A stretch of 64,000 nucleotides of DNA from Quercus robur (Eukaryota > Streptophyta > Magnoliopsida > Fagales > Fagaceae): assembly GCF_932294415.1 (NCBI RefSeq), contig NC_065538.1, positions 48,522,843 through 48,586,842 on the forward strand. The letters run 5' to 3'. The translations under genes were made by a program, and so were the position numbers. Positions 9,581 through 42,034 of this stretch are shown here, one piece after another. Under the pieces are notes generated by a model. It ran no database searches and was not told where the DNA came from. It was given only the letters and a program-made list of their open reading frames with translations. Position 1 is the stretch's first letter. Each line of letters begins with the position of its first letter.

Positions 9581-9625
9581 GATACCTGTGTACTTGAAAA
9601 AAAAAAAAAAAAAAAAAAAAATCAA

Positions 9626-20713: not shown

Positions 20714-20911
20714 TCCGAGATTCCTATCGAAAAAGCTACGCCGCTCTGGCCAGATTTCGGTATCGAGAAGACCAATAATGACATCGGAGTCGTAATCGGA
20801 ATCAGACCAGAGACCGCACTGGTTCTTGAGGCCAAGAAACTGAGGAGACCGAGTGGTGTGAAGCTTGCGACGGCGGGCCTCGAACACGGCGACGACTGAG
20901 GGGTGTGAAGC
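20714..20911 (-). pseudogene. Captured fragment of a subtilisin-like protease (SBT1 type)
   Basis: On the minus strand the frame reads HPSVVAVFEARRRKLHTTRS, then QFLGLKNQCGLWSDSDYDSD and VIIGLLDTEIWPERRSFF. This matches the junction between the I9 propeptide and the catalytic domain of plant subtilases, very like SBT1.6. The Asp of the catalytic triad is kept, but the canonical DTG reads DTE, so a key Gly is lost. The fragment has no start codon and runs into unrelated sequence after NLG. It covers only ~65 of about 750 residues and cannot encode an active protease. Confidence 0.88.
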
Positions 20912-21074
20912 TTCACTTTACGTGAGAGAGGCAGAGAAGCCATCTCTTTCTCTAAACCCAAATCCAATCAAACCCAGTCAAACCCACCAACGATCACCAA
21001 GCAAAGCCGAAGAGAAAGGCCAGATCCCAGCAAACCTAGTCGAACCCAACACCCACCATCTCAATCCCCATGAG

Positions 21075-21206
21075 ATGGCTTTCGATCCCGATGAGATGGC
21101 TGCGGTGTATAGCATGCTCACAACGGTGGAGAATCTGGTGGAGGTGAAGCCTGCGGTGGCGGAGATGGTGTGCGAGAGGACGAAGTTGTTGAAGTGGTTG
21201 CTAGGT
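21075..21206 (+). pseudogene. Captured fragment of beta-catenin-like protein 1
   Basis: The 44 codons include MAFDPDEMAAVYSMLTTVEN followed by LVEVKPAVAEMVCERTKLLK and WLLG. This is the conserved ARM-repeat stretch of plant CTNNBL1 homologues (a spliceosome-associated protein). After WLLG the frame enters unrelated sequence with GLLGSRF and stops at 21263. In the same frame an open stretch extends back to 20865, so a chimeric 132-aa product is possible on paper. Confidence 0.87.
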
Positions 21207-22118
21207 TCTGGGTTGCTAGGTTCTAGGTTCTGCGATGACAAAGTTGTCCTGGTTGGGTTCTAGGTTTCAATGTGAGTTTGGTGATTGAAGAAATGTGGGT
21301 TGTGGCTTCTGGGATTAGATGATTTTCTGGTTTTGAACTTTCTGGGCTTATGGCTTAGGGATTTGATGATTTTGCAGGATTGAAAATGAGGACTGAATTT
21401 CTTTTTTGAGCTTATGATTTCTTTTTTGAGCTGAATTTTTTGGGTTTCTTTGTGTGTTTGTTTCTCAAGAAAATTTCTGGGGATGAACCCAAGGAACATG
21501 AACATGTTCTTCAAAAAAAAATAATGAAAGAACTAAATTTTTTTAATTTAATTATCTTATTTTATTTTAAAAGAATTTAGAAAAAAAAATGAAAAAATAT
21601 TTTTTTATTATTATTTTATGCTGACTTGGCATTTATTAAATAATAAATAATTTTTTTATTATTATTTTATTCGCCACGTCAGCATTTACTGTATCAACAA
21701 TACACTATTTGCCACGTCAGCTTTTTCTGTTAGTTGAGTGACGGTAAGGACTTAAATGTCACGCGTTAATTGGTTTAGGGACTAAAAGTGGTAAAATGAA
21801 AATATAGGGACCAAAATAGAAATGATCCCAAAATGTAGGGATGAAAAGAGCATTTATGCCATAATAAAATCGTATAATATGTTTTTAAAATATATATTAA
21901 ATATAGGAGGTTGAGTCAAGTTTGGTGGAATTGTGAATTTGTTGACTCACACCTAACCCGACCCACTATAAAAAATAAATAAATAAAATAAACTTGACAA
22001 TCCAGCCCAATCCAACAATCCTCAAAAACCAACCTAACCCAATAAACAGACCTAATTTGGCAGGTTGGATTAGATCAGGTTGGATTTAGTAGAATTTTAG
22101 GTTAGCTGTACACCCCTA

Positions 22119-24370
22119 ATCAAGACTTTTTTAAGCAAGTATATTTCACATTAGAAAATTAACTATGTGTATTTATTAATGTAAGACAAAATAATTAATG
22201 CAAATATTAATCAAGCATCTTTATAGCAAGAAGTTTAAAATCTAAGTCTAGAAAAATTAATTTTCAAATACATTTAATGAGTCAATATATTTAATGAGCA
22301 ATTATGTTTAATTATTGATCTTAACTTCACTTTTTTTTTTTTTTTTTTTTTTGAGAATCAACTTCACATATTTATTTTATCTTTTGTTAATGAGTACTGA
22401 AAAAAATTGACCTTTCCTAAAATTTAATGAAATTATAGTCACCTCACATTTATTTCCAATTGTACCAACTACAAAGTTCTTCCTTGACTTTCAAAATAAA
22501 TTACAACAACTCTCATGCAGCTTAACAATATTAAAATCCATTAATTGAATTCAAAATAATTCTAATTTTTTTTTTATATTTCCACTTTTATCCTCATTTC
22601 TAAATGAAATTCTCATTTACTTAGAACACGTTTGGTACATTAAATATAGATTACAACAAGAATCGTAATCTTTATTACTGGAAATAAAATATGTTATAAT
22701 GGAATAACTAAACCTATTCATTAGTTTGGTAGATTCTCAAAAAATATATATAATCATTAGTTTGTATGTAAGTTGTAATATATTATAATAAAACTTAAAG
22801 ATCTATTTTAGCAAATATCTTACTCATACACTTATATTTCCTAGAAAATAATATATTTTAAATTTGAGAGAGATGAGTTATTTTTTGATGATTTTTTATT
22901 TCCATAATTGTTACGCGGAAAGTTTGTTTATTTGAAAATATATTAATATTAGAAATTATTACTCCTACTAAGGAATAGATATTACAACTCTTTTAGAGAG
23001 GAATAGTTACTCCTCATTTTAAAGAATAGCTATTTATAAGGAAAGACTATTCCCGGCAACAAAATTATAACCAAACAATTGAATAGCTAAATAATAGGAA
23101 TAGGTATTACATTACGGTACATATTAAAGACTAGAAAAATTAATTTTACGATATATTTAATGAGTCAAGACATTTATTAAGCAATAATTCTTCCTTATTG
23201 ACATTAAATTCACATAATTATTATATCTTTTGTTAATAAGTGCTGACAACAAAATGTGAAAATATTGCAATGACCTTTCTAGAGGTTTACTTATATTACA
23301 TTGACCTCCCCATTATTTCCAATTGTACAAAAACATTCCTTGCTTTTCAAAATAATTTACAATTCCTATCCAAAAAAAATAAAAATAATTTATAATCACT
23401 CTCATGTAGCTTAACACTATCCAAGAAAATTCCCTTTTTTTTAATCTATAATTAATGGGTTAAGAAGTATAAAGATAATTTCTTCTAATCAAAAGTCAAT
23501 GATAAAGATAACATGGTATCATTTAATACGAAATACTTTTTCATAAAAGTTACCTTTAACTTGTCCAACACACTAAAAGAAGGGGTCGCTTTCCTTCCCA
23601 AGATACACATCACAATGAGGATGCTCATCTCCTATATATAGGGAAAATGTATGCTTTCTTCCTTACCATTTATCAATCTACCAAAGCCATTGCTAGAAAA
23701 CCCGCTTTGGTTTGTAAACAATGGCTGTGAAAATGCCTGTATTGCTACTTGTTATGTCAAAATATGAATGTTCTAATAAATAAACCTGCCAACTACAGAT
23801 ATTATTTAGTAACGTATTGATAGCTGATAAAAATCTTCAGAATTTGGCATATTATATTGGTTGTGAGACCTAAGTTAGGTCTTTTGACAAGATGACAATC
23901 TATTTGATAATTCAATAATTAGGTTTGGTGGGATTTGAAATCTAGATGTTTCTATTTGAAACACTAAAATATACTAACTAGTTGAGCTATAAAGATCTTG
24001 GTACAAGATGACCCAATTTAAAATAGATGATCCAAAAATAAAACTTAAGTACAATTTCGTAGAACCTTAATTGTTATACCTTAAATTCCCCAATTAAATT
24101 CAATCACATTGCTGTAGTGACCAATGAAATATAAATAATGTCATCTTTTTCCAAAGACAATAAACTCAACCATGTGATTCATTGATCAATGCAATCACCT
24201 TACTGAATTTATTTAGGAAATCAAGAGTACCTAAAGAGCTAAACGGATGTACATAAGTTTTGCTCAAAATAAAAATGTAATAATTAATCAAATAGCAAGA
24301 GTTAAGGGATAATCAAGAAAAGACAAAGCCCTGATACAAATCCTATCAACAAAAAAATCCTTTCAAAGAT
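22119..24370. other. Duplicated AT-rich segment tail and unique spacer
   Basis: 22130-22640 and 23120-23480 are similar to each other (AAGCAAGTATATTTCA, AATTAATGCAAATATTAA and GAGTGCTGA-like landmarks), an internal duplication also seen in copy 2. 23506-24370 is unique and has no gene. Confidence 0.6.
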
Positions 24371-24639: not shown

Positions 24640-27182
24640 CAACATAAATCTTTTGGTGATTGGCAACACATAATTCTCATTGAATTAAGCATAAACCTTT
24701 GAATTAAATGAATAAAAGACTTTAACATTAAAATAAATAAATATACCAAAAAAAAAAAAAAGATCTTTGAACATACACATCGGAGCATGTGCAACGAGGT
24801 TAGTGCATATCAATACTAAGGGTGTGAATGGACTATGCCGGGCTTAAGGGGTTTTTTTAATCCAACCCACCATGGTTAGTTTAAAAAAAATCCAACTCAA
24901 ACCACTTGAATTAGATTGGACCCATGGGTTGGACATTTTTTTTTTTTTTTAATAATTGAGCATTAGAACAATATCAACACAAATAACAGCAAATTCATAA
25001 CTTAAGAAACTTGAACATAGCACCAAACCAACACAAACTATTTTATTAATGCTTTAAATTTCAAATAACAACAGATTTATAATCTTATAAATTTATTTGT
25101 AGTGCATTAAACTAACAAAAATAATCAAATCAAATAAATTTTATTTACTACCCCTACCATCTGAAAATTCTAAGTAATTGCATCATAATCAAACCAAACA
25201 ACATTTCATTTAATTAGTAAGATATCAAATAGTTCTATCTCAATTTAGTTCATGAGAAACAAACTAAAAATGAACAAGTTTATTATTCTATATTCAGTAG
25301 GATATTATATAGTTCTATCCCAATTTAGTTGATAAGAAAATGAATAAATAATAAAATCATATAATATGTTTTTAAAATATATATTAAATATAAGTGGATC
25401 AAGTTAAGTTAGGTGGAATTGTAATTTGCTGATTCACACCTAACCCGACCCACTGTAAAAATAAATAAATAAATAAAATAAACTTGACAATCCAACTCAA
25501 CCCACTAACCCTAAAAAACCAACCTGACCCAATAAACAGACCTAATTTTGCAAGTTGGACTAGATCAGGTTGGATCTATCAGATTTTTAGGTTGATTGCA
25601 CACCCCTAATCAAGACTTTTTTAAGCAAGTATATTTCATGCTTGAAAATTTACTATGTGTATTTATTAATGTAAGACAAAATAATTAATGCAAATATTAA
25701 TCAAGCATATTTATAGCAAGAAATTTAAAATCTAAGCCTAGAAAAGTTAATTTCCAAATACATTTAATGAGTCAAGATATTTAATGAGCAATTATGTTTA
25801 ATTATTGACATTAGCTTCACATATTTATCATATCTTTTGTTAATGAGTGCTGAAAAAAATTTACCTTTCCCGAAATTTAATGAAATTACATTCACCTCAC
25901 GTTTATTTCCAATTGTACCACCTACAAAGATCTTCCTTGATTTTCAAAATAAATTACAATAGCTCTCCTGCAACTTAACAATATTAAAATCCATTAATTG
26001 AATTCAAAATATAACTCTGATATTTTTTATATTTCCTCTTTTATCCTCATTTCTAAATGAAATTCTTATTTACTCAAAACATGTTTGGTACACTGAATGT
26101 GGATTATAACATGAATCGTAATCTTTATTACTAAAAATAAAATGTGTTGTAATAGAATAACTAAATCTATTAATTAGTTTGATAGATTCTTAAAAAAAAA
26201 AAAAAAAAAAAAAAATTAGTAGTTTAGTTGTAAGTTGTAATATTTAGAATAAAACTCAAGATATATTTTTGGAAATATCTCACTCATACAATTATATTTC
26301 CTAGAAAATAATATATTTTAAATTTGAGAGAGATGAGTTATTTTTTTGATGATTTTTTATTTCTATGATTGTTACGTAGATATGGAAAGTTTATTTATTT
26401 GAAAATATATTAATATTAGAAATTATTATACCTGTTAAGGAATAAATATTAAAACTCTTTTAGAGAGGAATAGTTATTCCTCATTTTAAAGAATAGCTAT
26501 TTATAAGGAATGGTTATTTCCTGCAACAAAATCATAACCAAACTATTTTATAGTTAAATCATAGAAATAACTATTATATTACAGTGCCTATTACAGTCTA
26601 CCAAACATGCCCTTATATATAATTAATGGGTTAAAAAACATATATACCAAAACATTTTTAAGCAAGTATATTTCATGCTAGAAATTTAAACGTGTATTTG
26701 TTAATGTCACAAATTAATTAATGCAAATATTAAACAAGCATATTTATAGCAAGAAATTTGAAATTAAATACTAGAAAAATTAATTTTAAGATTCATTTAA
26801 TTAGTCAAGACACTTATTAAGCAATTATTTTTACTTATTGACATTAAATTCACATAATTATTATATCTTTTGTTAATGAGTGCTGACAACAAAATGTGAA
26901 AATTTTGCAATGACCTCTCTAGAGGTTTACTGAAATTACATTGACCTCTCCCATTATTTCCAATTGTACAAAAACCTTCCTTACTCTTCAAAATAGCTTA
27001 CAATCACTCTCATGTAGCTTAACACTGTTAAAACACATTAATTGATATGAAAAAATAATTAAGAAAATTTGTATATTTTCATTTTTATCCTCATTCTTAA
27101 ATGAAATTCCCATTTTCTTATCTATAATTGATGGGTTAAGAAGCATAAAGATAATTTCTTCTAATCAAAAGTCAATGATAAA
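24640..27182 (+). repeat. Segmental duplication, copy 2 (without MULE)
   Basis: Direct copy of 19235-23505 lacking the Pack-MULE. The site corresponding to the insertion, near 25350, reads AAATAATAAAATCATATAAT with a single ATAATAAAA. Within this copy 25613-26050 and 26650-27080 are themselves related, so the duplication is nested. Confidence 0.9.
24817..25608 (+). mobile_element. hAT element copy 2, 792 bp
   Basis: Starts TAAGGGTGTGAATGG and ends CACACCCCTA; flanked by ATCAATAC (24809-24816) and ATCAAGAC (25609-25616). It is the uninterrupted counterpart of the element at 19404. Confidence 0.82.
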
Positions 27183-27500
27183 CAAATTTTTTTTTTTAAA
27201 TGTCTGAAATCATTATTGCTAATATTCAAAATTTCCAATTAAAGAAATATAAGATTCCCCGCCATGAACACTCCTCTCAAGAATATCGTCAAAAATGAAA
27301 AACCTCCCGGTGGAGTATTATTTTTTTCTACATAAAGAAATTGAGCCCAATTGGAGCTACCCACAGAACTGCAGGAAGCATAATTGGTCGTTAGGTTCAA
27401 CGATTTGCTTTCCATGCTTACAAAAACTACTGAAGACCAAAGGTGGAAGGTATTTTGGAGGAAACTGCCTAAATTGTAATCTTTCATCATTGCCAATTAT
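27183..27500. other. Short unique spacer, no gene
   Basis: Contains two overlapping short ORFs on opposite strands without recognisable similarity. Its last 8 bases, CCAATTAT, are the left target duplication of the composite element. Confidence 0.4.
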
Positions 27501-28401
27501 TAGGGGTGTCAATTCGGGTTAGCGTGTCGGGTTCATGTCGTGTTGAGGTAGGGGTATTCGACTAAATGGCTCAACCCTAACCCGACCCATTTAATAATCG
27601 TGTCATGATCCTTTAACCCTAACCCGACCTGTTAATAAGGAGGGTTGATCTGACCTAACCCATTTGACACGCGTAATAAAAGAGTCGTGTTGGGTTGACA
27701 TGAATGTAACACAACCCATTTCAACCTGCATAATACTAAATATAACATCCATCTAGAAATAATGTTTTTTACATCCCAAAAAACAGTGCATACTTAAAGT
27801 CTTCAATCCACATTTAAAATAATATAGTTCAACAAAAATATAACATTCATCTATAAATGAGTTCTTTACACTCCAAAAGAAGTGCATAAACTTCAATCCA
27901 AATTCAAAATAACAAAGTTTAACAAAAATAAAATAACATAGTTCAACAAAAATATAATATCCTTGGAACTTGCCAAATGCAAAGTTCTATGCCAAAAAAA
28001 AAAAAAAAAAGTATTAGTAGTTCTAGGGTTTGTAAATTTTCAATTTCCAATTATATCCCTTGTAAATTGTTGTAATTACTCACTTTTCTTTTCAAATTTA
28101 AAATATATGTTGGATATGTAAGGTATTTGACAAATCTAAAATAAAATAAATATTTATTTGTTATACGAGTTAAATGAGTTGTGTTAAGTAGGTCATTTCG
28201 GATTGACACAATTAAATTGGCGTGTCAAACGTGTCTATTGCGAGTTACGCGGGTTGACTCGCTTATTACACGTTTCTTATCGTGTCGCTTTCAAGTTGAT
28301 CCATTTATGACCCAAACCCATTAAGGCCTAACCCTAACCAGAAAAAACCCGTGTCGGGTTCGTGTCATGTTCGCGGGTTGGGTCGAACATTGACACCCCT
28401 A
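27501..28401 (+). mobile_element. hAT element, left copy of composite
   Basis: Starts TAGGGGTGTC and ends GACACCCCTA, perfect 10-bp TIRs, with GTTGGGTC/CGGGTTAGCG-rich subterminal regions. 901 bp, no transposase. Left flank CCAATTAT, right flank TCCATAGG, so not a simple insertion. By eye it is about 95% identical to 33522-34416. Confidence 0.9.
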
Positions 28402-28469
28402 TCCATAGGTGGATTAGCAATTTGGCCAAGGTCAATCTTTTTTTTTTTTTTTGGCCCTGCATTTTCCTG

Positions 28470-28708
28470 TTAAATTGTCAATTTTTTTCCCAAATTTGAA
28501 CCCCATTAATTTCAACATGGGACCCAGGACCAGCTAATCGACACTAAACTTTTCCAACTAAATTTTAATATCATTAAAATTCTTGGAAAGTATTAAATGT
28601 TAGCTATCCAAATTAAATCGTGTACATGCAATCACATGATTAATTTCAAATAGATTATAAACATAATTAATCCAAATTAATTGTGAGAGGCTTTGGTCAA
28701 TAGAAAAC
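28470..28708 (+). pseudogene. Inverted relic of the poly-CLE gene 3' end
   Basis: The sequence around 28484 (TTTTTTCCCAAATTTGAACC) and the following ~220 bp match the C-terminal codons and 3' flank of the poly-CLE gene at 31136, but on the opposite strand. The frame would end in FFPNLNPI, compared with FFPKFQPH in the gene. No CLE motif remains. Together with 30945-31150 it forms an inverted repeat around a 2.2-kb spacer. Confidence 0.65.
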
Positions 28709-30944
28709 CCAGGAGAGCATTTTAACCAAAAATTTAGACAAACAAAAACAACCATAGCATCTTTTAACAATGTGATGACTATCCATCCTCAGAAAGTTAT
28801 GTAGGCCTCCATGTTTGGCCTAGGCATATTATTTATATAAAAAAAAAATGTTTCGAGATATGAGGTGAAAAAACATATAACATAATTTATTTTTCTCTAT
28901 TACACATTCATTTCGTTTTGCAAGAAAAATTATTTATGTGTTATCTAGCTTGAGTGAAGAGGAAGAGACCGCAAATGATTTTGTTTTCTTTTCCGGATAT
29001 ATATTTGGAATAATGCAAAGTACTTAAATCATATTTAATTGATTTCATTATTTCTAATTTTTATGGATCAACTTGAAATTATTAATTAAAAATTCTATTC
29101 ATACGCATAATTTCGAATTTCCTTTAGCCACACAAGGTGGAAACCTATTATACCTATATAGGATGGATATTATTCATGTACATCTATCCCAACTGGCGGT
29201 TTATCGAATCATTGCGATCGAAAGGATCCAATTCTATCAAGTTTCCAATTTATAAGTAAAATCTGGGTCAAATTTCTCAAACTATAAATCTATGATCCAT
29301 TTTTTTGCGTTCTTTAATAATATGTTCTATGTTCTTTAATAATACCCTATACCTAGACACCTAAATAAAAAATATTATCTATTTCATCATTCTTAAATGG
29401 TTTTTAAACCTCAAATAAAGCACAATGTGGGTATGTCTCATTAGAATGGTTGATGGCTTAGAACTCCCACTTCTTTATGATGAAGAACCCATAAGGCTTG
29501 AAAGAGATTAAAATTTATTAAGGGTGACATAAAAAAACCTTTGTAATCCACCTTTTCAATATTTCAGCACTTTACTTTTATGTCATTTAAATTTCTCTAC
29601 TTTACTTTCCTTGCAATTTATTTTCTGCATTTTATTATTATTGTCTCTTTACATTTCTCATCATTAATAATGTTGCCATAAAATAAATATGCTTGAGTAA
29701 AACAACTCCTCTACACACTATTATAAGGAAATGCCTTTTAAAAATCTTTTCCAAACCATTTTTCAAAAAAATGAAGTCACTCAAATAAAAAAGAGTGTTT
29801 TCAAAAAAAGATGCTTTTCTAAATAACCCTTCTTTTTAAAGAATTTTCAAAAAATAAAAATAAAATATTTTCTTTTAAAAAAAGGGAAATACGAAATTAA
29901 TATGTTTTCAAAAGCGTTTGTCCTATACAAAAAAAGTGTTTTCAAATGGATGTTTCTTCAAAAAATCTATGTTTTCAAAAAATGTGTTTTACCACGTCAA
30001 ATTTCCCTACAAGGAAATGTTTTCTCCCTTCTTTTTAAAAATGCAAAAAATATCCTGCAAAGATAAAGTTTTTTTACCACATTAAAAAATGCTTTTAAAG
30101 AAAAATGTTTCAAATAACCTCATCTTATTTATTAAAAATCCTAAAAATTGTCTTTAGAAAAAAATAGAACTTTTACCACGTTGGATTTCTTTAAAAAAAA
30201 AAAATAAGGGTCTTTTTTTCAAAAAAGTGTTTTTCTCAAAAACTTCACAATAAAAAATTTAAAAATAAATAAAAAAAAAAAAAAAAAAAAAAACGTTCTT
30301 TTCTAAACTAATCAAAGTTGACGTTGTAATTTTTTTCATACTTTTAATTTTGAGCATTTTCTTAGAATTGTTGTAGTTAAAGATTTGTGTTCATGGCTCA
30401 CTTCTCTCGAGTCTTTGAACACCTTATAAGTTTACATTATCCCTATCATTTTCTTCGGCACTAATGAGCTATATTTGTCATTTTTTTTTTTTTTTTTCAT
30501 GATGAAAATGAGAAAACTATGGATGACAACAAGGTGATATTCTTTCAACTCCCTCTTTCTTTGTTGAGTTATTAGCTTGCCTACTTATGATAGCTAGTAC
30601 TCACATGCTATGTATATATTAAATATTCTATTCACATGTTTTGAATGTTCTCTCACATGTTACTTACGTACATACCTCACATGTCTTGATTGCAAATATT
30701 CTTTGGAGTTAATATTCACATGTTTGCTATATGTAAATATTTACTTACATCTATATATGTATATTGTTTTCAAAAAAAAAATCTTTTTTCAAAATGCCAA
30801 GTATACTATTTCTTCACAAAAACATAATGTTTGAAATAAATTAAAATGAGGTACTATCTTCAAATGGGCGTTGTGGGGTGCTTAACACCTTCCCCACATG
30901 TATCCAAACTTCCGAGTCCAAGATCTTTCGTTCGAAACTTTTTT
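28709..30944. other. Spacer between inverted arms, possible LTR-retroelement relic
   Basis: 29700-30280 has many degenerate TGTTTTCAAAAAA repeats. 30870-30900 has GGGGTGCTTAACACCTTCCC, a block often seen in decayed plant LTR elements. A-run at 30270-30292. No gene recognised on either strand. Confidence 0.4.
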
Positions 30945-31135
30945 GTTTTCGATTGACCAAAGCCTCTCTGAATTAATTCAGATTAGTTATGTTTATAATC
31001 AATTTGAAATTAATCATGCAATTGAATGTACACGATTTAATTTGGATAGCTATATTTTCCATGAATTTTATTGATATTAAAATTTAATTGGACAAGTTTA
31101 TTGCCAATTAGATGGTCTTCGGTCCCATGTTGCAA
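30945..31135 (-). other. 3' flank of poly-CLE gene (inverted repeat arm)
   Basis: Reading the minus strand after the stop, AATAAA-type polyadenylation signals occur at about 31098 and 31076. The region is the counterpart of 28484-28708 in inverted orientation, with similarity ending abruptly near 30945. Confidence 0.6.
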
Positions 31136-31996
31136 TTAATGGGGTTGAAATTTTGGGAAAAAATCAACTTTGACTCTTGCACGGTTATTTTGTAGAGGAT
31201 CGATCTTTGTGCTGACTGGATTACCTATTGGACTGGGTCCTTCCGGCACATCGTGGTTGATTCTTCCTTGAATATTTTGTAGAGAATCAGTCCATGTTCC
31301 GACTGGATTACCTATTGGACTAGGTCCTTCCGGTACATCGTGGTTGATTCTTGCTTGAATATTTTGTAGAGAATCAGTCCATGCAGTGACTGGATTCGGT
31401 ATAGAATTTGGTCCTCTTGGTACATTTTGGTTGTTTCTTGCAGGATGATTTTTTTGTGGATCGATCCATGTGCTAACTGGATTACCTATTGGACTAGGTC
31501 CTTCAGGTACATCGTGGTTGGTTCTTGCTTGAATATTTTGTAGAGAATCAGTCCATGTTCCGATTGGATTACCTATTGGACTAGGTCCTTCCGGTACATC
31601 GTGGTTGATTCTTGCTTGAATATTTTGTAGAGAATCAGTCCATGTTCCGACTGGATTACCTATTGGACTAGGTCCTTCTGGTACATCGTGGTTGATTCTT
31701 GCTTGAATATTTTGTAGAGAATCAGTCCATGTTCCGACTGGATTACCTATTGGACTAGGTCCTTCCGGTACATCGTGGTTGATTCTTGCTTGAATATTTT
31801 GTAGAGAATCGGTCCATGCAGTGATTGGATTATGTATAGAATTGGGTCCTTCTGGTACATTTTGGTTGTTTCTTGTTGGAAGATTTTTTTGTGGATCGGT
31901 CCGTTGTGATATTCTAGCACTTGAGCTCATGAAGAAAAGTGAGAGGAAAACAAATAACATGACAATGATTATCTTTCTATTTATCGAGTCAAACAT
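31136..31996 (-). CDS. Secreted poly-CLE peptide precursor, eight TDIF-like CLE motifs
   Basis: This single-exon gene encodes 286 residues. Residues 1-27 form a signal peptide (IIIVMLFVFLSLFFM core, then SSSA). A 29-residue unit then repeats eight times, each with a CLE-type dodecapeptide at 45-56, 74-85, 103-114, 132-143, 161-172, 190-201, 219-230 and 248-259. Six are HDVPEGPSPIGN, one QNVPEGPNSIHN and one QNVPRGPNSIPN. They keep the CLE signature V3-P4-G6-P7 and the final N12 (P9 in six), and the main form is close to the TDIF peptide HEVPSGPNPISN of CLE41/CLE44, which inhibits tracheary differentiation through the receptor TDR/PXY. Linkers read PVGTWTDSLQNIQAR, with an Arg three residues before His1 for processing. 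The C-terminus is FFPKFQPH. A TATA box lies 66-76 bp upstream. Known CLE precursors mostly carry one motif; multi-CLE precursors exist but are uncommon. Receptor and activity are inferred only. The PIP peptide family (SGPS core) is a less good match. Confidence 0.85.
   Translation of the reverse strand: MFDSINRKIIIVMLFVFLSLFFMSSSARISQRTDPQKNLPTRNNQNVPEGPNSIHNPITAWTDSLQNIQARINHDVPEGPSPIGNPVGTWTDSLQNIQARINHDVPEGPSPIGNPVGTWTDSLQNIQARINHDVPEGPSPIGNPIGTWTDSLQNIQARTNHDVPEGPSPIGNPVSTWIDPQKNHPARNNQNVPRGPNSIPNPVTAWTDSLQNIQARINHDVPEGPSPIGNPVGTWTDSLQNIQGRINHDVPEGPSPIGNPVSTKIDPLQNNRARVKVDFFPKFQPH
31220..31864 (-). repeat. Tandem 87-bp coding repeat, eight CLE units
   Basis: Units are exactly 87 bp, so the frame is kept. 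Units 2-5 and 7-8 are nearly identical at the DNA level, pointing to recent expansion or gene conversion. Units 1 and 6 are a second type (QNVP), suggesting an ancestral order that was duplicated as a block. Confidence 0.95.
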
Positions 31997-32061
31997 TTTG
32001 CCTGCTATAATTTAACAAAGTGGTTGTTGGAATGATGTTTTCACACTATTGTTAACAAACC

Positions 32062-32072
32062 TTATTTATAAG
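32062..32072 (-). promoter_or_regulatory. TATA box of poly-CLE gene
   Basis: Minus strand CTTATAAATAAG, 66-76 bp before the ATG at 31996, giving a leader of roughly 35-40 nt. A short leader is usual for small peptide genes. Confidence 0.65.
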
Positions 32073-32376
32073 CCCAAGTATTAGATAATAAAGGTAATAT
32101 ATTTTTATAGTAACCAAACAATATTTGGTCAAAAAATCCTTGGTAATCTCAATCACAAGGTATTTCCATTTTGAATGACTTCTTTTTGGTAATTTTATTG
32201 TTGAAATTTAAATATAAATCCTACAAAGTTATTGTTGAAAATCTATTGTGATTTATGTACATGGAAAAAAAATTATTTCCAAGTGCATTTAAAAAGTAAT
32301 AGATAATTCTTTAATACTCTTGTGAAGGTTAAGACTAAGATGAATAACTTGATAAAACCTTTTACGAGGCAGAATT

Positions 32377-32640
32377 TTAATGAATAGTGCCTATTTCCTT
32401 TTCAATGAAGACAGACACAAGACATTCATTAAAAGATGGGGTGGAAGGTTTGATTAATGAATTATCAAACAATCCACCAACTGGCAAAATCATATGTCGT
32501 CGCATAATAGTCATGATTGTATTGTAGTCAAACATATTTATGCTTGTAACAACAAAGGTACTCTCAATCACAAAGTATCATCCTTTCTAATTTTATTTCT
32601 GGTAACTCTTTTATTCAATTTTAGAGTAGTGTTTTGTTAG
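32377..32640 (-). pseudogene. Relic of a second poly-CLE gene 5' end
   Basis: On the minus strand at 32535 an ATG begins MFDYNTIMTIM, compared with MFDSINRKIIIVM in the intact gene. The upstream ~60 bp (CTCAATCACAAAGTAT, then a TTTCTGGTAACT block) match the promoter side of the intact gene (CTCAATCACAAGGTAT, TTTTTGGTAATT at ~32146-32195). After about 13 codons similarity is lost and no CLE motif follows. I infer a truncated tandem duplicate. Confidence 0.45.
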
Positions 32641-33521
32641 CGCAAATGAATTCCTCTAAACCAAAATTTACCTATATCTTTAAATAAGATGACGGATATT
32701 TGGCCTATCGTAATTGTCCATATACTCGCCAATTCACCATCCTCTATCAGAAAATGACTTTCACCTTCCCAATTACACCAGTGAGAATCATTTTGTAGAC
32801 ACCTCGTTTTGAAACAAGGGATCCTCACAAGGTCAAAATCCTAAGTTTCCTTTAGATAAGTGTAAATGTCATTGAAGCCTTTTCTAAAATGAATTGCAAA
32901 AACATCGAATTTCACAATGATCTAAGTGATGCACTGGATGCAAAGATCAAAGAACCCCATCACAAAAGATCAAATTTTACGATCAAAATAAACCCTTGTA
33001 ATTAATGCCTAAACGATGTGAGCATGATAAATTAATTTTAATTTGAAAATTCCGTTGATATATGTTTTAAGACCAGAATTTAATTTCAATTGAACTCACC
33101 GGTCTAATGTCTCCACCCTAGGTACTAAGTGACTAGGTGTGAGCAAGGTTTCCGATTTCTACAAATTGGGTGGGTAGGAGTATGGTAGATTTAGGAATTT
33201 CTAAACAAAGCCCCCCCCCCCCCCCCCACCACACACACAAAAGAATTTAATTAAAAGAATGGATGAATGCTTAGTGATAATTATGATTATTAAATTATTT
33301 TTTAAAATTGATACCAAGGTTATACATAAAAATAATAAATAATAAATAATAAAAAACTGAAAGTATTAAAACCATAAATTTCTTTAGTATGGGTCATATA
33401 TTTGGGGTTAGTGAAAATTGGGGAGAAACGGAGGGTAAATTGAAATTTGGGTTTGCACATGGTCGAGTACAAACCTTTGCATTATGTATGCCGATTGGTA
33501 GATGAATACCAAGTCCATAGG
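32641..33521. other. Spacer with poly-C tract; no gene recognised
   Basis: A minus-strand ORF of 63 codons at 32637-32828 has no family I recognise. A run of about 18 C lies at 33211-33228, followed by (CA)n. The last bases, TCCATAGG, are the inner flank of the right hAT copy. Confidence 0.4.
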
Positions 33522-34416
33522 TAGGGGTGTTAATTCGGGTTAGCGTGTCGGGTTCGTGTTGTGTTGAGGTAGGGGTATTCGACTAAATGGCTCAACCCTA
33601 ACCCGACCCATTTAATAATCGTGTCATGATCCTTTAACCCTAACCTGACCTATTAATAAGGCGGGTTAATCTAACCTAACCCATTTGATACGCTTAATAA
33701 AAGAGTTGTGTTGGGTTGACACGAATGTAACACAACCCATTTCAACCTGCATAATATTAAATATAACATCCATCTAGAAATAATTTTTTTTACATCCCAA
33801 AAAACAGTGCATGTACTTAAAGTCTTCAATCCACATTTAAAATAATATAGTTCAACAAAAACATAACATTCATCTAGAAATAAGTTCTTTACACTCCAAA
33901 AGAAGTGCATACACTTCAATCCAAATTCAAAATAACAAAGTTTAACAAAAATAAAATAACATAGTTCAACAAAAATATAATATCCTTGGAATGCCAAATG
34001 CAAAGTTCTATGCCAAAAAAAAACAGTATTAGTAGTTCTAGGGTCTGTAAAGTTTCAATTTCCAATTATATCCCTTGTAAATTGTTGTAATTACTCACTT
34101 TTCTTTTCAAATTTAAAATATATGTTGGATATGTAAGGTATTTGACAAATCTAAAATAAAAAAAATATTTATTTGTTATACGAGTTAAATGAGTTGTGTT
34201 AAGTAGGTCATTTCGGATTGACACAATTAAATGGGCGTGTCAAACGTGTCTATTGCGGGTTACGCAGGTTGACCCGCTTATGACACGTTTCTTATCGTGT
34301 CGCTTTCGGGTTGATCCATTTATGACCCAAACCCATTAAGGCCTAACCCTAACCCGAAAAAACCCATGTCGGGTTCGTGTTGTGTTCGCGGGTTGGGTCG
34401 AACATTGACACCCCTA
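33522..34416 (+). mobile_element. hAT element, right copy of composite
   Basis: Starts TAGGGGTGTT and ends GACACCCCTA; 895 bp; same orientation as the left copy. Left flank TCCATAGG, right flank CCAATTAT. Confidence 0.9.
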
Positions 34417-34816
34417 CCAATTATGAATCGCTAGGCATGATACAGTGAGGAAAAAAATCGATGCTATTGTTTGGCTGACGCCAAAGTCATTGGCTAAAAA
34501 CATCCAAATTCTTCCTAATTTTTCTTGAGGAATCTTAAATTTTTTTTTTTTATGTGTTATTTTGTTAATCTTGCAAGATTGCTTTCTTGAACATTTCTTA
34601 TTTTTGTTTGTTGAATCTGAATTAATTTTTTTTTTAATCTTTTCTTCTTTTTAACCAATTAATTACAGGAGAATGAGAATTTTATTTGAAAAGAATGGTA
34701 AAAGTGGAAATACACAAAATTTTCAATTTTTTTTTTTTTCAAATTTTGTTAGTGCATTCAACATTCCTAACCTATCAGGAGGTGAGTAAAGTTTATATTG
34801 AAAAAAATATGGAAGT
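34417..34816. other. AT-rich spacer before LINE
   Basis: T-runs and no coding signal. Its last 10 bases (34807-34816, ATATGGAAGT) are the LINE target duplication. Confidence 0.5.
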
Positions 34817-34856
34817 GAGCCAATCCAACATATAAGTATAACCAATCACTCTAGGA

Positions 34857-36761
34857 ATGCAACCACGCACGCTCTCTAGAGAGGAAGAGGCAGAACTGGC
34901 TCGGAGCAAGAAGAAGGTGAAGGACTATCATCATGCAGAGTTTAATGTTGGCTCAAGGGAAAGCTCTCCAGCTCCGGGGCAGCAAAATACTGGCTCCTTT
35001 GCCAAAGCCTCCTTCAAGGAGAAGCTTGTGGGTGAAATGCCAGGGGCTTATGTGAATGCTTTTGACTTTGAGAGTCTTATGGAGGAGGATGAGATCTCTG
35101 ATGGTGAGGGTAGCGAGTCTAACAGTCGGATTCCAGAAGGATGGGTCACTGTCAAACTGATGAAGGAAACAAAACGGCGCATTAGAGGTCCATTGTCGAA
35201 AGCTATTATAGTCAAGCTGGTTGGAAGAACAATCAGCCTCACCTACATGCGTACCAAGCTTAACCAAATGTGGAGACCATCGACTAGGATGGATTGTGAG
35301 GATCTTGGGTATGGATTTTTTCTGGTTAGATTTTTTGCCAAGGAAGATCTAGATAATGTCTTAAGGAGAGGGCCATGGTTCTTGGGTGACCATTTTCTTT
35401 CTATTAGAGCATGGGAACCTTTCTTTAAGCCTTCAACGGCGAATGTCTCCCTCATTGCAGTTTGGATTCATCTATGTGAACTTCCCTTTAAGCTGTATGA
35501 AGCAGAGGTGCTAAAGCAGATTGGAGAGTCCATTGGCAAGGTTCTGAGAATAGATTCCCATACGGCCATGAAGGCTCGTGGCAAATATGCTAGATTGTGC
35601 ATTCAAATTGATATTAATAAACCTTTGGTGAACACCATCCTTATTGGATGGTTTGAGCAAGCTATGACCTATGAGGGCATACAAAGCTTATGTTTTTCCT
35701 GTGGTAGACTTGGGCACAAGGTGGAAGCATGCCCCTACACCATTCGTAAGGGGAAAGAGCAAGTGGTTTCGGAAGAGGAGGTGTTGGCTGGCCGAGATGC
35801 TACATCATGTGAGACGTATGATAGTCATTCCGTAACGGTTAATAGGGAAAGGACTGAGGTGAGAGAAGACACGAAGGTGGATGGTCAGTATGGACCGTGG
35901 ATGGTGGTGAGTAGAAGGACAAATGGGCGAAAGGGAACAAAACCAAATTTCAGTACAGAGCGTACTGGAATTTCTGGCCGGGCTGGTGCTGCCCAACTAC
36001 CTCCGAAAAATCCGGATTGGAGAGGCACGTCGTCTAATAGTACTGACCATTCTCAGAGCATGCTACGCAGGGGCTCTTTGCATGGCGCTGGGGACCACAC
36101 CAAAAGGACGGAAGCATTCTGGTCACCCAAAAATTCTGGCCTGGGCCTCATGGACCAAATAGATAACTCCAAAATGGACCCAACGAGTAGCTCCTTGTTG
36201 GCAAAAGAGACCAGTGACTTTCACTCAGGTATTGGGCCTTCAAAAAGCCTGAAATCTCAAGCCCAAGCCCCTAAAAAGCACCCCTCCTCTATTAAAGGGA
36301 AAAAAGCCCTCGCCAGAGGAGTACGTCTTTCTTCATACATTACCAGCGACGGCAACAATGGGGAAAAATTCTCAAATGCCAAACCCGCAGCCCCATCTCC
36401 TTCCCATGCCCATACACGGTCTAAGGAGTCGTCAGCTGGTCTGGATCCTTCTTTCAAGTTCACGACTTCGTCCTGTGAGAGTTTTGAGTAGAGGAGCGAT
36501 TGGATCGACCCACCGGGTGACCAGCAAGCTAGCGCCGTGTGTCCCGGAGCTTTAACCACCAACTGTGAGGATGTAGAAGGTGATCTCAACACCCTTCAAT
36601 CCAGCGCCGTTGATCATAGTATAGCCACAAGTGCGGGTGTTGGGGAAGGAAATGCCGAGGGTTTCTCAAGTCCTCGCTCTGAAGATGGATCAATTTATGA
36701 AGACTTGGGAATTGATTGTATGGTATCGGAGGAAGGGAATGGAGTCCCTCCTTCCGATTGA
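34857..36761 (+). pseudogene. LINE ORF1, DUF4283 plus zinc knuckle, one premature stop
   Basis: ORF1 protein binds element RNA in the ribonucleoprotein particle. Residues ~85-280 form the DUF4283 domain (GFFLVRFFAKEDLDNVLRRG and a downstream VWIHLCELPFKLYE). A CCHC knuckle CFSCGRLGHKVEAC follows near residue 283. The C-terminal half is hydrophilic and low in complexity. TAG at 36489-36491 interrupts the frame, but it stays open in the same frame to TGA at 36759-36761, so the original product was about 634 residues. The stop is explained by CAG to TAG. Confidence 0.88.
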
Positions 36762-36792
36762 TTTGTTGTCTCCATTTCTGTTAATTGTTACC

Positions 36793-39700
36793 ATGAATAT
36801 TCTGATTTGGAATAGTAGAGGAGCATTAAAACCCGCTTTCTAGACATATGTTCATGAGTTAACTCGGCAACATGATCCGGCTATTTTTGTAGTGATAGAG
36901 ACTAAATTAGGTGGTAGCAAAGCCAAGGAAATCACAGATAGGCTGCCTTTTGATGGAGCCATTCATACGGAGACAATTGGTTTCACTGGTGGGTTGTGGT
37001 TGCTGTGGAACGAGGATCAAGTGGTGATTCAGGAGCTAGCTAAAACTGAGCAAGAAATTCATGTAGAAGTAAAGGTACATGCCTCAAATCTCTCTTGGAT
37101 TTTCTCTGCTATTTATGCTAGTCCTAGGAATGAAGAGAGATGTGTTCTCTAGAGCAATTTATGTAAGGTTGCAGATTTACATAATAAGCCATGGATTATG
37201 GCAGGCGATTTTAATGAACCTCTGGTGCAAGAGGATATATTTGGAGGCAGGGGTGTTAGTGTGAATCGGTCTCTGGCCTTTAAAGATTGCTTAGATTTAT
37301 GCAATATGGTTGATATGGGTTTTAATGGTCCAAGGTATACCTGGATTAACAAACGGGATATTAACAATCTCATTTTGGAAAGAATTGATAGATTTTTCAT
37401 GAACCCGAAGTGGTGTGTTCTTTATCCTGATGCAAAAGTTTCTCATCTGCCCCGTTGCCATTCTGATCATTGCCCGGTTCTAATGGAGACCATTCCGGGT
37501 AGAGGGGTTCGTCTCAACAGACCCTTTAGATTTCAAGAATTCTGGTTGTCGGACCTATCCTTTCCCAATATAGTTTCCAGTGCCTGGAGTAGGGATAGGA
37601 ACTTAGCTGAGTCTATTAAGGTTTTTTCTAAGGAAGCTACCATCTGGAATAGGGATCATTTTAAGAATATCCACCAGAAGAAGAGGAGAATCATGGCTAG
37701 AATCTATGGTGCCCAAAAAGCTCTCTCCATCTGTCCAAGCTCCTCCCTCATTAATCTTGAGAACCAGCTACAGCAGGATCTGGAGGTTGTGTTAGACCAG
37801 GAGAGGGATCTTTGGATGTTGAAATCCAGAATTAACTAGTTGGTCCAGGGAGACCACAATACAGCTTTTTATCATGTATCTACCTTAGCTAGAAGGAAAA
37901 GGAACCATATTGCCTCAGTCAAAGACGAGAGGGGTTTGTGGTTATCTGATGAGAGTGAAGTCATGGAGCACTTTAGAAGTGGTTTTGTTTCCCTATACAC
38001 CACTTCTCTTGAGGCAGCCTTTCGGGTTCCAAGCCATGATGTTTCCTGGCAGATTCATTTGTCTGAGCAAGCTAAGGCATCAATTGGTGCCATGGTCACC
38101 ATGGAAGAAATTAAAGATTCTCTATGGTCCATGAAACCGTATAAGGCTCCGGGTCTAGATGGTCTTCATGCAAGTTTCTTCCATCATTTCTGGCTTGTAG
38201 TTGGGGATTCTGTTAAGGAGGAAGTTATGAGAGCTTTCACTGAGAGAAAGGTTCCCAATTATCTGAACAAAACCCTCATTGTGCTCATTCCCAAAATCCA
38301 AGGCCTTGAAACCATTGGAAATTATAGACCAATTAGTCTCTATAATACTATCTACAAGATCATCTCCAAGATTATTATTACTCGAATCAGACCACATTTG
38401 GAGCAACTTGTCTCGCCTTATCAAACGGCTTTTGTGCCGGGTAGAAGAGGAGCTGATAATGTTATTATTGTTCAAGAGTTGATTCATACCATTGGTAGAA
38501 CCAAAGGCAACAAGGGGTATATGGCTTTCAAGATTGACCTTGAAAAAGCTTATGACAAAATTGAATGGAGCTTCATTAGGGAAATGCTTCTCAAGTTTAA
38601 CTTCCCTATGAACCTTATTGATATTATTATGAGCTGCGTTTCCTCGGTGTCGACATCTCTTCTCTTTAATGGTGGCTGCCTTGACTCCTTTTGCCCCACT
38701 CGAGGTATTAGACAAGGGGACCCCCTGTCGCCTTACCTCTTCATTTTGTGTATGGAGTTTCTGGGTCACTTGATTCAAGAGAAATGTGACACCAAGCTCT
38801 GGTTGCCAGTGAAAGCTTCTAGGAGTGGGCCTTCCTTCTCACACTTATTTTTCGCGGATGACTTGGTCCTTTTTGCTAGAGCAGATTCAGTTAACTGTCA
38901 GGCCATAAAGGATGTCCTTCATGAGTTTTGCTTGAGATCTAGGCAGAGCGTGAGCGAAGCCAAGTCTCATGTGTTCTTCTCCCCCAATGTAGAGCCGGAT
39001 CAAAGAGACATCCTCTCTAGTATTCTTGGGTTTTACTCAACCCCTAACCTTGGCAAGTACCTGGGGTTTCCCTTGAAGCATTCAGGTGACCGAAAGCATG
39101 ATTTTGATTTCGTCCTTGATAGAGTCAAGAAAAAGTTGGCAAGGTTGAAAGCTAACTTACTCTCTATGGCTGGCTGAGTGGTTCTCATTCATGCCTCCTC
39201 CTCAACCATCCCAAACTATGTGATGTAATATGCTCCTCTTCCTAGTAAAATTCTTAAGGGTATTGACAGGGTCAATAGGAATTTCCTTTGGGGCTCAATG
39301 GATCATGCTAAGAAGATGCATTGGGTTAATTAGGCTGAAGTGACAAAACCAAAGGAGGCAAGAGGTTTGGGTTTGCAATCTGCTAAAGGTAGAAACACGG
39401 CTCTCCTAGCCAAGCTCAATTGGAGATTTCATACAGAGAGGAATGCACCATGGGCTAAGGTTCTCAAGTTTAAATACTGCACTAGACAAAGAATTAATTC
39501 TAGGAATGAAGCGAAACTCCCTATGTCTCCGGTTTGGAAAGAGATGAAAAGGGGCGAGGTAGTCTTCAAAAAAGGAGTAAAATGGATTCTAGGCCATGAA
39601 AGCTGTCTAAATTTCTGGTCTGATTGTTGGTCTAACATTGGTCCTATTAGGCCTCATATCCAAGGCCCGCTCCCGCAAGACTTTGTTAACTTGCAAGTCA

Positions 39701-40923
39701 AAGATGTGCTCTCTCCAGTCAGATGGGACTAGTCTAATATCCCTTTTGAGCTACCCCCTGAAGTTAAAGCTGACATTCAAGATGTCCCCATTCCTATTGT
39801 GACTAGGTGCAATGATAAAATGGCTTGGAAGTTCTCCCCTAGAGGGGATTTTGATATGAGGAGTGCCTATAGCCTTGCCATTAACTCTTCAGGCAATGAG
39901 TCTTTCTCTGGTTCTTGGATTTGGAAGCTTCCATCCCTGCCTAGAATTCAAATGTTTATTTGGAAGTGCATGCAAAAGAGCATAGGTGTGAAGGAATGCT
40001 TAGCAAATAGAGGTATCCCTCTAGAAACCACCTGCCCTCTATGCCACTCAAAAGCTGAATCTATCTTACATGCCCTTCGGGATTATAGCTTGGTTAAACC
40101 CATATGGTACCAAATGGGAACACATTGCTTGTACTCCAATTTTTTCTCCCAAGACATCAGAGAATGGTTAATCACTAATTGTAGGCTCAAGTCTTCCCAG
40201 AATGGAGTGGGCATCCCCTAGTATGTGCTCTTTTCTTTTACTCTCTGGTTGGTTTGGAAGCAGCGGAACCATATTGTCTTTACTAACAAGGGAGTAAACC
40301 CAAATTTATGCAAATCTATTGCCTTACATGCCTCAGAATTTTTCTTGTGTGCTTCTCAACCGAGGCGGCACAATCGGATGGTTATTAAACAAATTAGATG
40401 GGAGAAGCCAGATCAGGGGTGGTGGAAACTCAACACTGATGGGTCTTAGGTTGCAGCTTTGGGATCGGCAGCAGGGGGTGGTTTGATTAGAGATAGCAAG
40501 GGCAATTGGGTGACCAGCTTTACAAGAAAACTAGGGAATGCTAACAGCTTCACTGCGGAAGTTTGGGCTCTCCGTGATAGCTTGATGTTGTGCATTCAAA
40601 AGAAGATTCCAGCTGTTATTGTCAAGATGGATGCAAAGGCTTTGGTTGATGCGTTGAACAATCCTTCTTACCGAAACTCAGTGATCTCTCCTATTTTTGA
40701 AGACTGCAAAAATCTGATTCTGCAGATCCCTCAAGTTCGTATTAAACATGTCTACTGTGAGACAAATAAATGCGCCGACTGGTTAGCTAATTCTGGCCAT
40801 TCTCAATCTTTAGATTTTATTATTCACTCTGTTCCTCCCGTGAGCTTAATCCCCTCTGTTGAGGTTGATTGTCATGGTACTTGGTGTAACAGGCGTTGTC
40901 CTGAATTTTCCTTTCCTTGTTAG
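36793..40923 (+). pseudogene. LINE ORF2: endonuclease, reverse transcriptase, zf-RVT, RNase H; nine premature stops
   Basis: One frame runs from ATG 36793 to TAG 40921 with no frameshift. The apurinic-type endonuclease starts MNILIWNSRGALKPAF and includes the WIMAGDFNEP and SDHCPVLME motifs. Reverse transcriptase has YKAPGLDGLHASFF, FKIDLEKAYDKIEW, GIRQGDPLSPYLFI and the catalytic FADD. A zf-RVT segment (CPLCHSKAESILHAL) and an RNase H domain (KLNTDGS, TAEVWALRDSL, KMDAKALVDAL) follow. Stops lie at 36841, 37150, 37837, 39175, 39226, 39331, 39730, 40219 and 40447. The parental codon is inferable at each (Trp at 37150, 37837, 39331, 39730, 40219 and 40447; Gln or Arg at the others). Every one is a C-to-T or G-to-A change. 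Confidence 0.92.
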
Positions 40924-41595: not shown

Positions 41596-42034
41596 ATGAA
41601 ACCAGAGATAATATCCCATTTTTTTTGCTTTTTGCTAGTACTTCTCATAGCCTTTGACCTAAGGTAGTTCCTTTTCATGGATACCCTCTCGATTTAGAAC
41701 TCACTATGTAAGAATCGTCAACAACTTCACTGACGAAACCATTGAGTACCACTGTAAATCTCGAGATGATGATTTAGGCCAAAGAATTCTTCAACCCAAA
41801 GAAGAGTGGGAATTTTCCTTCAAAATCAATTTTGGTGGCACAACTCGTTTTTATTGCTACTTTTGGTACCAGAACTTCAATGCTTCTTTTGATGTATTTG
41901 ATGCAGACGTGGATGAGGATTTAGACTGTGGTGGAGACCACTGCATTTGGACCGCACAAAAAGATGGATTCTACTTATTACAAATAAAACGTAATGAAAA
42001 TGTAAAGAAGTATGATTGGAAGAAAGAGATATAA
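41596..42034 (+). pseudogene. S-protein homologue (plant self-incompatibility S1 family), frameshifted
   Basis: ATG at 41596 opens a signal-peptide-like frame (HFFCFLLVLLIAFDLR) that stops at TAG 41665. From about 41663 the +1 frame carries the mature domain to TAA 42032-42034: YVRIVNNFTDETIEYHCKS, DDDLGQRILQPKEEWEFSF, GGTTRFYCYFWYQNFNA, then CGGDHCIWTAQKDGFYLLQI. These match SPH proteins, small secreted proteins with four conserved Cys, all present here (HC, FYC and the CGGDHC pair). Some relatives act as stigmatic self-incompatibility determinants; most have unknown roles. A single-base indel near 41660-41668 joins the two frames, so I call it a pseudogene. A sequencing error or a tiny intron could also explain it. 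Confidence 0.82.

Follow-up and report, generated by a model that had tools for sequence, protein, structure and literature searches.

The question posed by this locus is whether a single plant gene could deliver several copies, and several kinds, of a CLE peptide hormone from one secreted precursor. Plant CLE hormones are usually encoded one per precursor. An earlier reading of the oak DNA, made from the letters alone (the sequence-only reading), had proposed that one open reading frame carries eight TDIF-like dodecapeptides. Here we consider that open reading frame within the window, i.e., the whole 64-kb stretch of DNA that was analyzed, together with its relatives in the same genome (786 Mb in 42 contigs). 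We put the probability at about 0.75 that the window gene encodes a poly-CLE prepropeptide and that this polyprotein-like carrier releases the hormones, both taken together.

Results

Eight CLE-like units in one precursor

The window gene had been described as a secreted-type open reading frame built from eight units of 29 residues, each with one CLE-like 12-mer, and this description was confirmed, with the signal peptide being judged by eye (Table 1). All seven spacings between the 12-mers are 29 amino acids. The units follow the order B A A A A B A A, in which the six A units contain 12-mers that are identical at the protein level (HDVPEGPSPIGN, the HDVP form) and the two B units contain QNVPEGPNSIHN or QNVPRGPNSIPN, one each (the QNVP forms). 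The repeat has a period of 87 bp and 8.1 copies between positions 31186 and 31887 (TRF). The only stop in the coding frame is the terminal one, and the remaining five frames hold 9-24 stops each. Basic, hydrophobic and Ser/Ala-rich regions are visible by eye at the N-terminus, which is similar in paralogues, and the first T of the TATA box lies 74 nt 5′ of the ATG. The C-terminal tail of the precursor, PVSTKIDPLQNNRARVKVDFFPKFQPH, resembles the start of another unit. The proposal that the array expanded recently suits the A units, which are 90-99% identical in DNA, but not the two B units, which are 78% identical; moreover, the 29-residue scaffold is common to diverged arrays and the unit architecture is thus older.

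Table 1. Coordinates of the window gene, its flanking elements and related loci in the oak genome
Feature	Position	Strand	Basis
Poly-CLE precursor ORF, 286 aa, ATG to TAA	31136..31996	-	ORF and motif analysis
Signal-peptide-like N-terminus MFDSINRKIIIVMLFVFLSLFFMSSSARI, resembled in paralogues	31910..31996	-	Sequence; judged by eye
Unit 1 12-mer QNVPEGPNSIHN, B type	31829..31864	-	PSSM 17.9 bits
Unit 2 12-mer HDVPEGPSPIGN, A type	31742..31777	-	PSSM 27.2 bits
Unit 3 12-mer HDVPEGPSPIGN, A type	31655..31690	-	Motif and PSSM
Unit 4 12-mer HDVPEGPSPIGN, A type	31568..31603	-	Motif and PSSM
Unit 5 12-mer HDVPEGPSPIGN, A type	31481..31516	-	Motif and PSSM
Unit 6 12-mer QNVPRGPNSIPN, B type, weakest of eight	31394..31429	-	PSSM 10.7 bits, below null maximum
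Unit 7 12-mer HDVPEGPSPIGN, A type	31307..31342	-	Motif and PSSM
Unit 8 12-mer HDVPEGPSPIGN, A type	31220..31255	-	Motif and PSSM
TATA box GGGCTTATAAATAAGG; GGGCTTATAAAT conserved in family	32060..32075	-	Sequence, family comparison
hAT-like element, left copy, 901 bp	27501..28401	+	Repeat and end analysis
hAT-like element, right copy, 895 bp, 95.2% identical to left	33522..34416	+	
Outer 8-mer CCAATTAT, left	27493..27500	.	Sequence
Outer 8-mer CCAATTAT, right	34417..34424	.	Sequence
Inner 8-mer TCCATAGG, left	28402..28409	.	Sequence
Inner 8-mer TCCATAGG, right	33514..33521	.	Sequence
One 5.12-kb (5,120-bp) period of C35/C37-type gene array, opened at element site	28402..33521	.	
Inverted copy of gene 3′ end and 3′ flank, with VNFFPKFEPH	28481..28708	+	85.5% to 31164-30945
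RKVPGGPNPIHN sub-family	C37:1.636-1.658 Mb		Fetched stretches
RESPGGPDPIHH sub-family	C35:21.77-21.80 and 28.96 Mb		Fetched stretches
HDVPEGPSPIGN sub-family	C35:36.42-36.46, C39:36.37 Mb, window on C5		Fetched stretches
Two-CLE gene, RAVPTGPNPLHN and RAVPTGPNHLHN, 110 aa, family upstream region	L022:3948-4277 (C2:25.892 Mb)		
Members of second multi-CLE family	L036:3027-3827, L037:2625-3314, L038:2814-3449		

Membership in the CLE family

A PSSM was derived from 102 published CLE motifs of poplar and tomato, 72 of them distinct (tables of PMC4776436 and PMC9670457). The top eight windows of the precursor were exactly the eight 12-mers, at 27.2 bits (six times), 17.9 bits and 10.7 bits, and the next window scored 0.1 bits. 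The maximum among 62,579 other 12-residue windows in the six frames of the 64 kb was 15.2 bits (GVEPTCPNPTHN, 19011-19046 on the minus strand, inside an open stretch of 31 amino acids), and none of 20,000 composition-preserving shuffles of one unit reached 27.2 bits. Seven of the eight 12-mers score above this best null window. The exception is QNVPRGPNSIPN, which is also below the lowest known motif in leave-one-out scoring (17.1 bits), so that one of the eight 12-mers fails when judged alone. QNVPEGPNSIHN passes both values narrowly, and HDVPEGPSPIGN falls at the 15th percentile of the known motifs (leave-one-out).

As far as sequence can tell, homology to paralogues is a stronger argument for CLE membership than the PSSM. 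The paralogues with RKVPGGPNPIHN (40.1 bits) and RESPGGPDPIHH (38.4 bits) are similar to the window gene in the upstream region, the N-terminus and the spacer scaffold, and paralogue consensus motifs score 38-41 bits with the same PSSM. The RAVPTGPNPLHN gene likewise shares a similar upstream region and N-terminus; its spacer is different. That paralogues in this genome have canonical CLE peptides on such a scaffold strongly supports the assignment to the CLE family, with several CLEs per precursor as the sequence-only reading had it, and the window gene is almost certainly a poly-CLE gene.

It is very improbable that the units belong instead to another family of the SGP type (PIP/PIPL, IDA or CEP). 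Although HDVPEGPSPIGN matches AtPIP1 and AtPIP2 at five residues when aligned without gaps in the best register, the QNVP forms match PIPs in two to three residues only, and the homologous paralogue units are canonical CLE motifs. The text of PMC4526919 gives SGPS as a motif for IDA and PIP, and a C-terminal GxGH as a motif for PIP and CEP; both are absent here. PIP/PIPL was rejected on the EGPS, EGPN or RGPN that stands in place of the SGPS core and on the absence of the C-terminal GxGH, and IDA/IDL on the absence from the window 12-mers of an SGPS core followed by (R/K)(R/K)HN.

Pfam and a PDB sequence search returned nothing usable, and the window protein had no match at E 1 in the protein database. 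Since a query with the C37 paralogue retrieves plant proteins, this null reflects either a limit of word sensitivity or a real absence. A pattern search gave no match in viral contigs and 31 matches in prokaryote contigs, none of which was confirmed, and six strings from the window peptides had no match in the literature searched.

Likeness to TDIF

TDIF binds TDR via H1-E2-V3 and N8-I10-N12, with a hinge at G6 (ITC; PMC5383425). The role of E2 is termed marginal in that paper, and the anchors scored here were H1, V3, G6, N8, I10 and N12. HDVPEGPSPIGN has five of the six (His1, Val3, Gly6, Ile10 and Asn12), with Ser8 replacing Asn8, and the QNVP forms also have five (V3, G6, N8, I10 and N12), with Gln in place of His1. 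Neither form has the full anchor set of TDIF (CLE41/44), and the two kinds of peptide thus depart from it at different ends of the ligand. Of the 72 motifs, those nearest to HDVPEGPSPIGN are PtCLE34 HKAPSGPSPIGN and tomato HDVPTGPSPSHN and HDVPAGPSPSHN, which match it at 9 of 12 positions each, whereas TDIF matches it at 8 of 12. The label TDIF-like therefore fits the five anchors, but not residue 8 or the nearest motifs in this set.

The sequence-only reading had also suggested that Glu5 and Gly11 may alter receptor choice. This suggestion is at odds with the finding that alanine at P4, S5, P7 or S11 of TDIF has no significant effect on TDR binding (PMC5383425). Going by the anchors, an effect should be expected from Ser in place of Asn8 in HDVP and from Gln in place of His1 in QNVP. 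CLE46, another member of the H1 group, had no measurable TDR binding (PMC5383425), and so a peptide with His1 is not automatically a TDR ligand. We predict from the anchor comparison that HDVPEGPSPIGN is a PXY/TDR-type ligand with an affinity lower than that of TDIF, and it may work like TDIF, though it is not classed as TDIF. The QNVP forms, having lost His1, may act weakly or as decoys, or may have no function.

A multigene family in the same genome

The genome contains at least 49 stretches that match the window query and at least 53 that match the paralogue query. A scan for the gene-start pattern, which covered L009-L022 and the window, recognized 14 family gene starts, and the identical GGGCTTATAAAT box is present in 11 of them. 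Six of the 14 are open for less than 100 amino acids, and broken copies are thus common. The eight copies compared can be aligned through the upstream region, the 5′ leader and the signal peptide, and GGGCTTATAAAT is the same in all of them. In a tree of the upstream and start regions, the window gene clusters with three starts from C35:36.4-36.5 and the C39 copy (support 100/99); the fourth start at that C35 locus (L016) lies outside this group.

Consensus spacers of the three sub-families (Table 1) match at 11-13 of 17 residues and the 12-mers at 5-8 of 12, the consensus units having been drawn up by eye; it is as if the spacer were a fixed processing frame and the 12-mer hormone its exchangeable part. 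An array of the RESPGGPDPIHH type at L018:4019-6079 (C35:21.769 Mb) has a 30-residue period, 21 units and 687 codons, with one in-frame stop. The two-CLE gene on C2 is possibly close to the ancestral form. Judging by the assembled copies, the family appears to range from two to 57 CLE units, mostly on one scaffold, and to include several CLE classes.

Among the remaining matches, tblastn at E 1e-3 detected no additional units in the flanking stretches L013 and L023-L030, L014 merely repeats the edge of L015, and the weaker matches L035 and L039-L041 held no open frame with at least two motifs in the pattern scan. A second, apparently separate multi-CLE family is present at C39:11.6-11.7 Mb, with about five units per member, the motifs RTVPKGPNPIKS and RKVPSGPDPIQS and a spacer unlike that of the first family; its fetched stretches (L036-L038) showed no GGGCTTATAAAT box.

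Array growth and selection

The largest family member seen is a single open reading frame of 1692 amino acids at C37:1646615-1651690 (L010:2615-7690), a candidate gene known from the genome assembly. It consists of a signal-like N-terminus and 57 CLE units followed by TAA; all 56 spacings are 29 residues, and 29 of the 57 units are exactly RKVPGGPNPIHN. There are no in-frame stops, while the other forward frames contain 18 and 148 and the reverse frames 49, 5 and 114. The 57 units comprise 50 distinct DNA sequences, and exact repeats reach a maximum length of 406 bp, at a shift of 12 units, which argues that the array grew by block duplication. The best-word candidates of comparable length (about 930-2,960 amino acids) numbered 7,993, and none of them was similar to the whole paralogue at E 0.01. 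The first 312 residues matched four multi-CLE-like proteins of 177-374 amino acids, at E 4e-12 to 8e-4.

These arrays raise the possibility that the locus is a coding minisatellite that expands and contracts by unequal crossing-over, with most or all of the additional peptides going unused. On this explanation, which we consider rather unlikely, the frame has stayed open chiefly because 87 is a multiple of three. It overlaps with the hormone-carrier reading, as some units could be in use and others idle. Periods of 87 and 90 bp, the recent block duplication in the 57-unit frame and the six short or broken gene starts among 14 are what a minisatellite would produce. A test of frame openness did not reject neutrality for the 57-unit frame (2.3 and 0.4 stop-creating variants expected; P of none, 0.10 and 0.65), such that its openness is statistically unsurprising, and one reverse frame has only five stops. 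Constraint in this paralogue is also weak, with an omega-like ratio of 0.58 in the 12-mers and 0.82 in the spacers (Fisher p 0.49). The RESPGGPDPIHH array of L018 is similar, its 12-mers being no more constrained than its spacers (0.73 vs 0.60, p 0.74).

The HDVP sub-family, however, points away from a minisatellite. The six A 12-mers of the window differ by four synonymous and no nonsynonymous changes (chance 0.003-0.005), and their spacers by two synonymous and six nonsynonymous changes (Fisher vs 12-mers, 0.06). Taken over 17 HDVP units from three intact genes, omega-like ratios are 0.15 for the 12-mers and 0.61 for the spacers (Fisher 0.14). Between the window gene and the C35 copy (L012), dN/dS is 0.12 in the 12-mers and 0.59 in the spacers (Fisher 0.07). 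The corresponding values for the C39 copy are 0.30 and 0.76 (Fisher 0.06), in a comparison where some QNVP units are aligned to HDVP units and dN is thereby inflated. None of these 12-mer versus spacer tests falls below 0.05, and the data are suggestive of purifying selection on HDVPEGPSPIGN relative to the spacer, without reaching significance. Against the two C37 genes, the window gene gives 0.77-0.84 in the 12-mers and 0.68-0.85 in the spacers. Thus, the 12-mer appears to be under constraint inside the sub-family and to have been rewritten from one sub-family to another.

The QNVP 12-mers of the three intact genes look unconstrained overall (omega-like 1.12). Nonsynonymous variants lie at positions 4, 5, 7 and 11 of the B 12-mers and at positions 2 and 5 of the A 12-mers, and none of them (0 of 9 or 0 of 10, depending on the count) falls at the TDIF-TDR anchor positions 1, 3, 6, 8, 10 and 12. 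This avoidance of receptor anchors, together with the conservation of the upstream region and signal peptide across sub-families, likewise speaks against a minisatellite with unused peptides.

A transplanted array period

The window gene is flanked on each side by a copy of a 0.9-kb element, both copies in the same orientation. Its ends are TAGGGGTGTCAAT...ATTGACACCCCTA, and we take the element to be of the hAT type. The element has a 13-bp terminal inverted repeat, TAGGGGTGTCAAT, conserved at 12 of 13 positions in the right copy. The 8-bp duplications are exchanged between the copies, such that the outer pair match each other and the inner pair match each other. TCCATAGG is unique to the element site within the window, and CCAATTAT also occurs at several other places there. 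A reading of the ~900-bp flanking repeats as an LTR retrotransposon was dropped on account of the exchanged duplications and the TAGGGGTGTCAAT termini.

In the gene arrays, the inner ends are contiguous with no element between them at seven places (L012, L015, L016, L009, L010 twice, and L011), and one intact TCCATAGG is found at the empty site in three C35 stretches. Positions 28402-33521 are thus one array period, opened exactly at the element site. Two routes could have led to this arrangement. In one, a one-period circle that bore the element underwent recombination on C5 with an element located at CCAATTAT; in the other, the block of element, unit and element was moved whole by transposase. 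The C39 copy (L017:408-6638, 36.37 Mb), which is without the element, is opened no more than about one base from the same point on the left and 30 bases short on the right, which hints that this dispersed copy came from a related event. Pieces similar to the inverted 3′ piece of the window are also present in L009-L012 and L015-L017, and the piece may be what is left of a second gene copy in tail-to-tail orientation.

Composite insertions of maize Ac/Ds likewise have hAT ends around genomic DNA and an 8-bp target duplication, as described in PMC4270019. Relative to that description, the inner flanks in the window also match (TCCATAGG) and a single period of a hormone-gene array was carried as cargo.

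Discussion

How far does the window gene depart from known precursors? Multi-CLE genes had been called uncommon, yet a precursor with eight CLEs has precedents. Radish RsCLEm1 and RsCLEm2 have eight tandem CLE domains with short spacers and a signal peptide, as does the window gene, and Brassica napus BnCLEm3 has five in the same layout (PMC11172632). Among legume genes, LjCLE32 has eight CLEs, LjCLE33 nine, MtCLE14 seven and GmCLE37a/b six (PMC5570945, PMC4526924). The regular repeats of 24-35 residues in Lotus and Medicago multi-CLE genes are comparable to the 29 residues of the window gene, and MtCLE14 has several identical 12-mers, as the window precursor does (PMC5570945, PMC4526924). Goad et al. 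2017, as cited in PMC8496505, counted 59 multi-CLE proteins in 27 species. Thus, with RsCLEm and LjCLE32 published, the window gene alone is an already known type of precursor.

The family as a whole differs from these precedents. Likened to RsCLEm and BnCLEm (PMC11172632) by architecture, it reaches 57 units, and its scaffold carries three or more CLE classes. Lotus and Medicago multi-CLE prepropeptides have 116-347 residues (PMC5570945), compared with 286 in the window precursor and 1692 in the C37 paralogue. More than nine CLEs per precursor were not found in the literature passages searched, where the maximum is nine (LjCLE33), followed by eight. What is new with the family is arrays far larger than those found in print, several CLE classes per scaffold and a documented transplantation. 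Multi-CLE-like proteins of other plants, with motifs identified by eye, are P0001 (Rhamnella rubrinervis), P0002, P0003 (Gossypium arboreum) and P0004 (Magnolia sinica). P0003 (PVK06_041757) is annotated as an ADP-ribosylation factor with about six CLE-like repeats at its C-terminus, and is probably a fused gene model.

Precursors closer in peptide sequence differ from the window gene in other respects. PtCLE34 and tomato SlCLE16-18/39 (HKAPSGPSPIGN, HDVPAGPSPSHN, HDVPTGPSPSHN), which match HDVPEGPSPIGN at 9 of 12 positions, are single-CLE precursors, unlike the window gene (PMC4776436, PMC9670457). Switchgrass PvTDIFL3 MR3 has several TDIF-like 12-mers in one precursor (HGVPSGPNPGSN, HDVPSGPNPGSH, HDVPSGPNPGSN), which are functionally divergent (PMC8496505); it has three motifs with Asn8 kept, compared with eight in the window gene and Ser8 in their main form. 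The three-motif switchgrass precursor expressed in Arabidopsis gave no amplification (PMC8496505), which counts against the reading that an array raises dose.

The DNA of the locus offers a TATA-bearing upstream region, a signal-like N-terminus, eight CLE units, family membership and a transplanted array unit, each recognized at the level of sequence. In the mechanism that we propose, the precursor would enter the secretory pathway and the prolines of the embedded peptides would be hydroxylated. Subtilase-type proteases would then cut the 17-residue spacers and trimming would leave the 12-mers, such that one transcript could yield at most six copies of HDVPEGPSPIGN and at most two QNVP variants. 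All eight 12-mers are preceded by Asn and followed by Pro, and a bond before Pro is awkward for endoproteolysis. CLV3 is thought to be trimmed C-terminally by a carboxypeptidase, and IDA is cleaved after Asn (HN-SF) by subtilases (PMC13082318). Thus, a cut in the spacer followed by trimming is the likelier route.

It is improbable that the active product is something other than the 12-mer, i.e., either a longer peptide that includes the conserved ARIN or the Pro after the 12-mer, or the repeat protein as a whole, acting in the apoplast. Pro13 after all eight 12-mers would be consistent with a longer product, as would spacers that are at least as conserved as the 12-mers between sub-family consensus units (11-13/17 vs 5-8/12). 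Within the HDVP sub-family, however, the spacers vary more than the 12-mers, though not significantly.

Returning to the hormone carrier, the same kind of carrier would hold other CLE classes (RKVPGGPNPIHN, RESPGGPDPIHH) in the wider family, and array length and ligand class thus appear to evolve on one conserved scaffold. A broader and more tentative reading, against which the odds stand somewhat, is that the family represents a hormone-polyprotein strategy of unprecedented scale. A scaffold of two to 57 units would have had its ligand class switched (TDIF-like, RKVPGGPNPIHN type, CLE1-7-like) and its gene unit moved between chromosomes via hAT-like elements. If that is the case, dose and receptor target evolve by array expansion and by rewriting of 12 residues in a fixed processing frame. 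A family of two to 57 units would be a natural series in which to relate unit number to dose, to follow excision of inner units and to follow changes of receptor class, and the pattern of spacer versus peptide conservation offers a way to seek processing signals. The exchanged target duplications, along with the surviving empty site in the arrays, are a record of a hormone gene moved between chromosomes.

Other features of the window were noted in passing. Pfam was applied to the CLE protein and seven neighboring open reading frames, all of them outside the hAT-like elements. An open reading frame at 41663-42034 has a plant self-incompatibility S1 domain (PF05938, E 8e-28). Element types read from Pfam domains are an LTR-type polyprotein at 902-5944, a plant mobile domain at 6812-9640 and LINE-like frames at 34842-40923. 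To the left of the element, 19231-23168 and 24642-27182 form a segmental duplication with about 85% identity in two long blocks.
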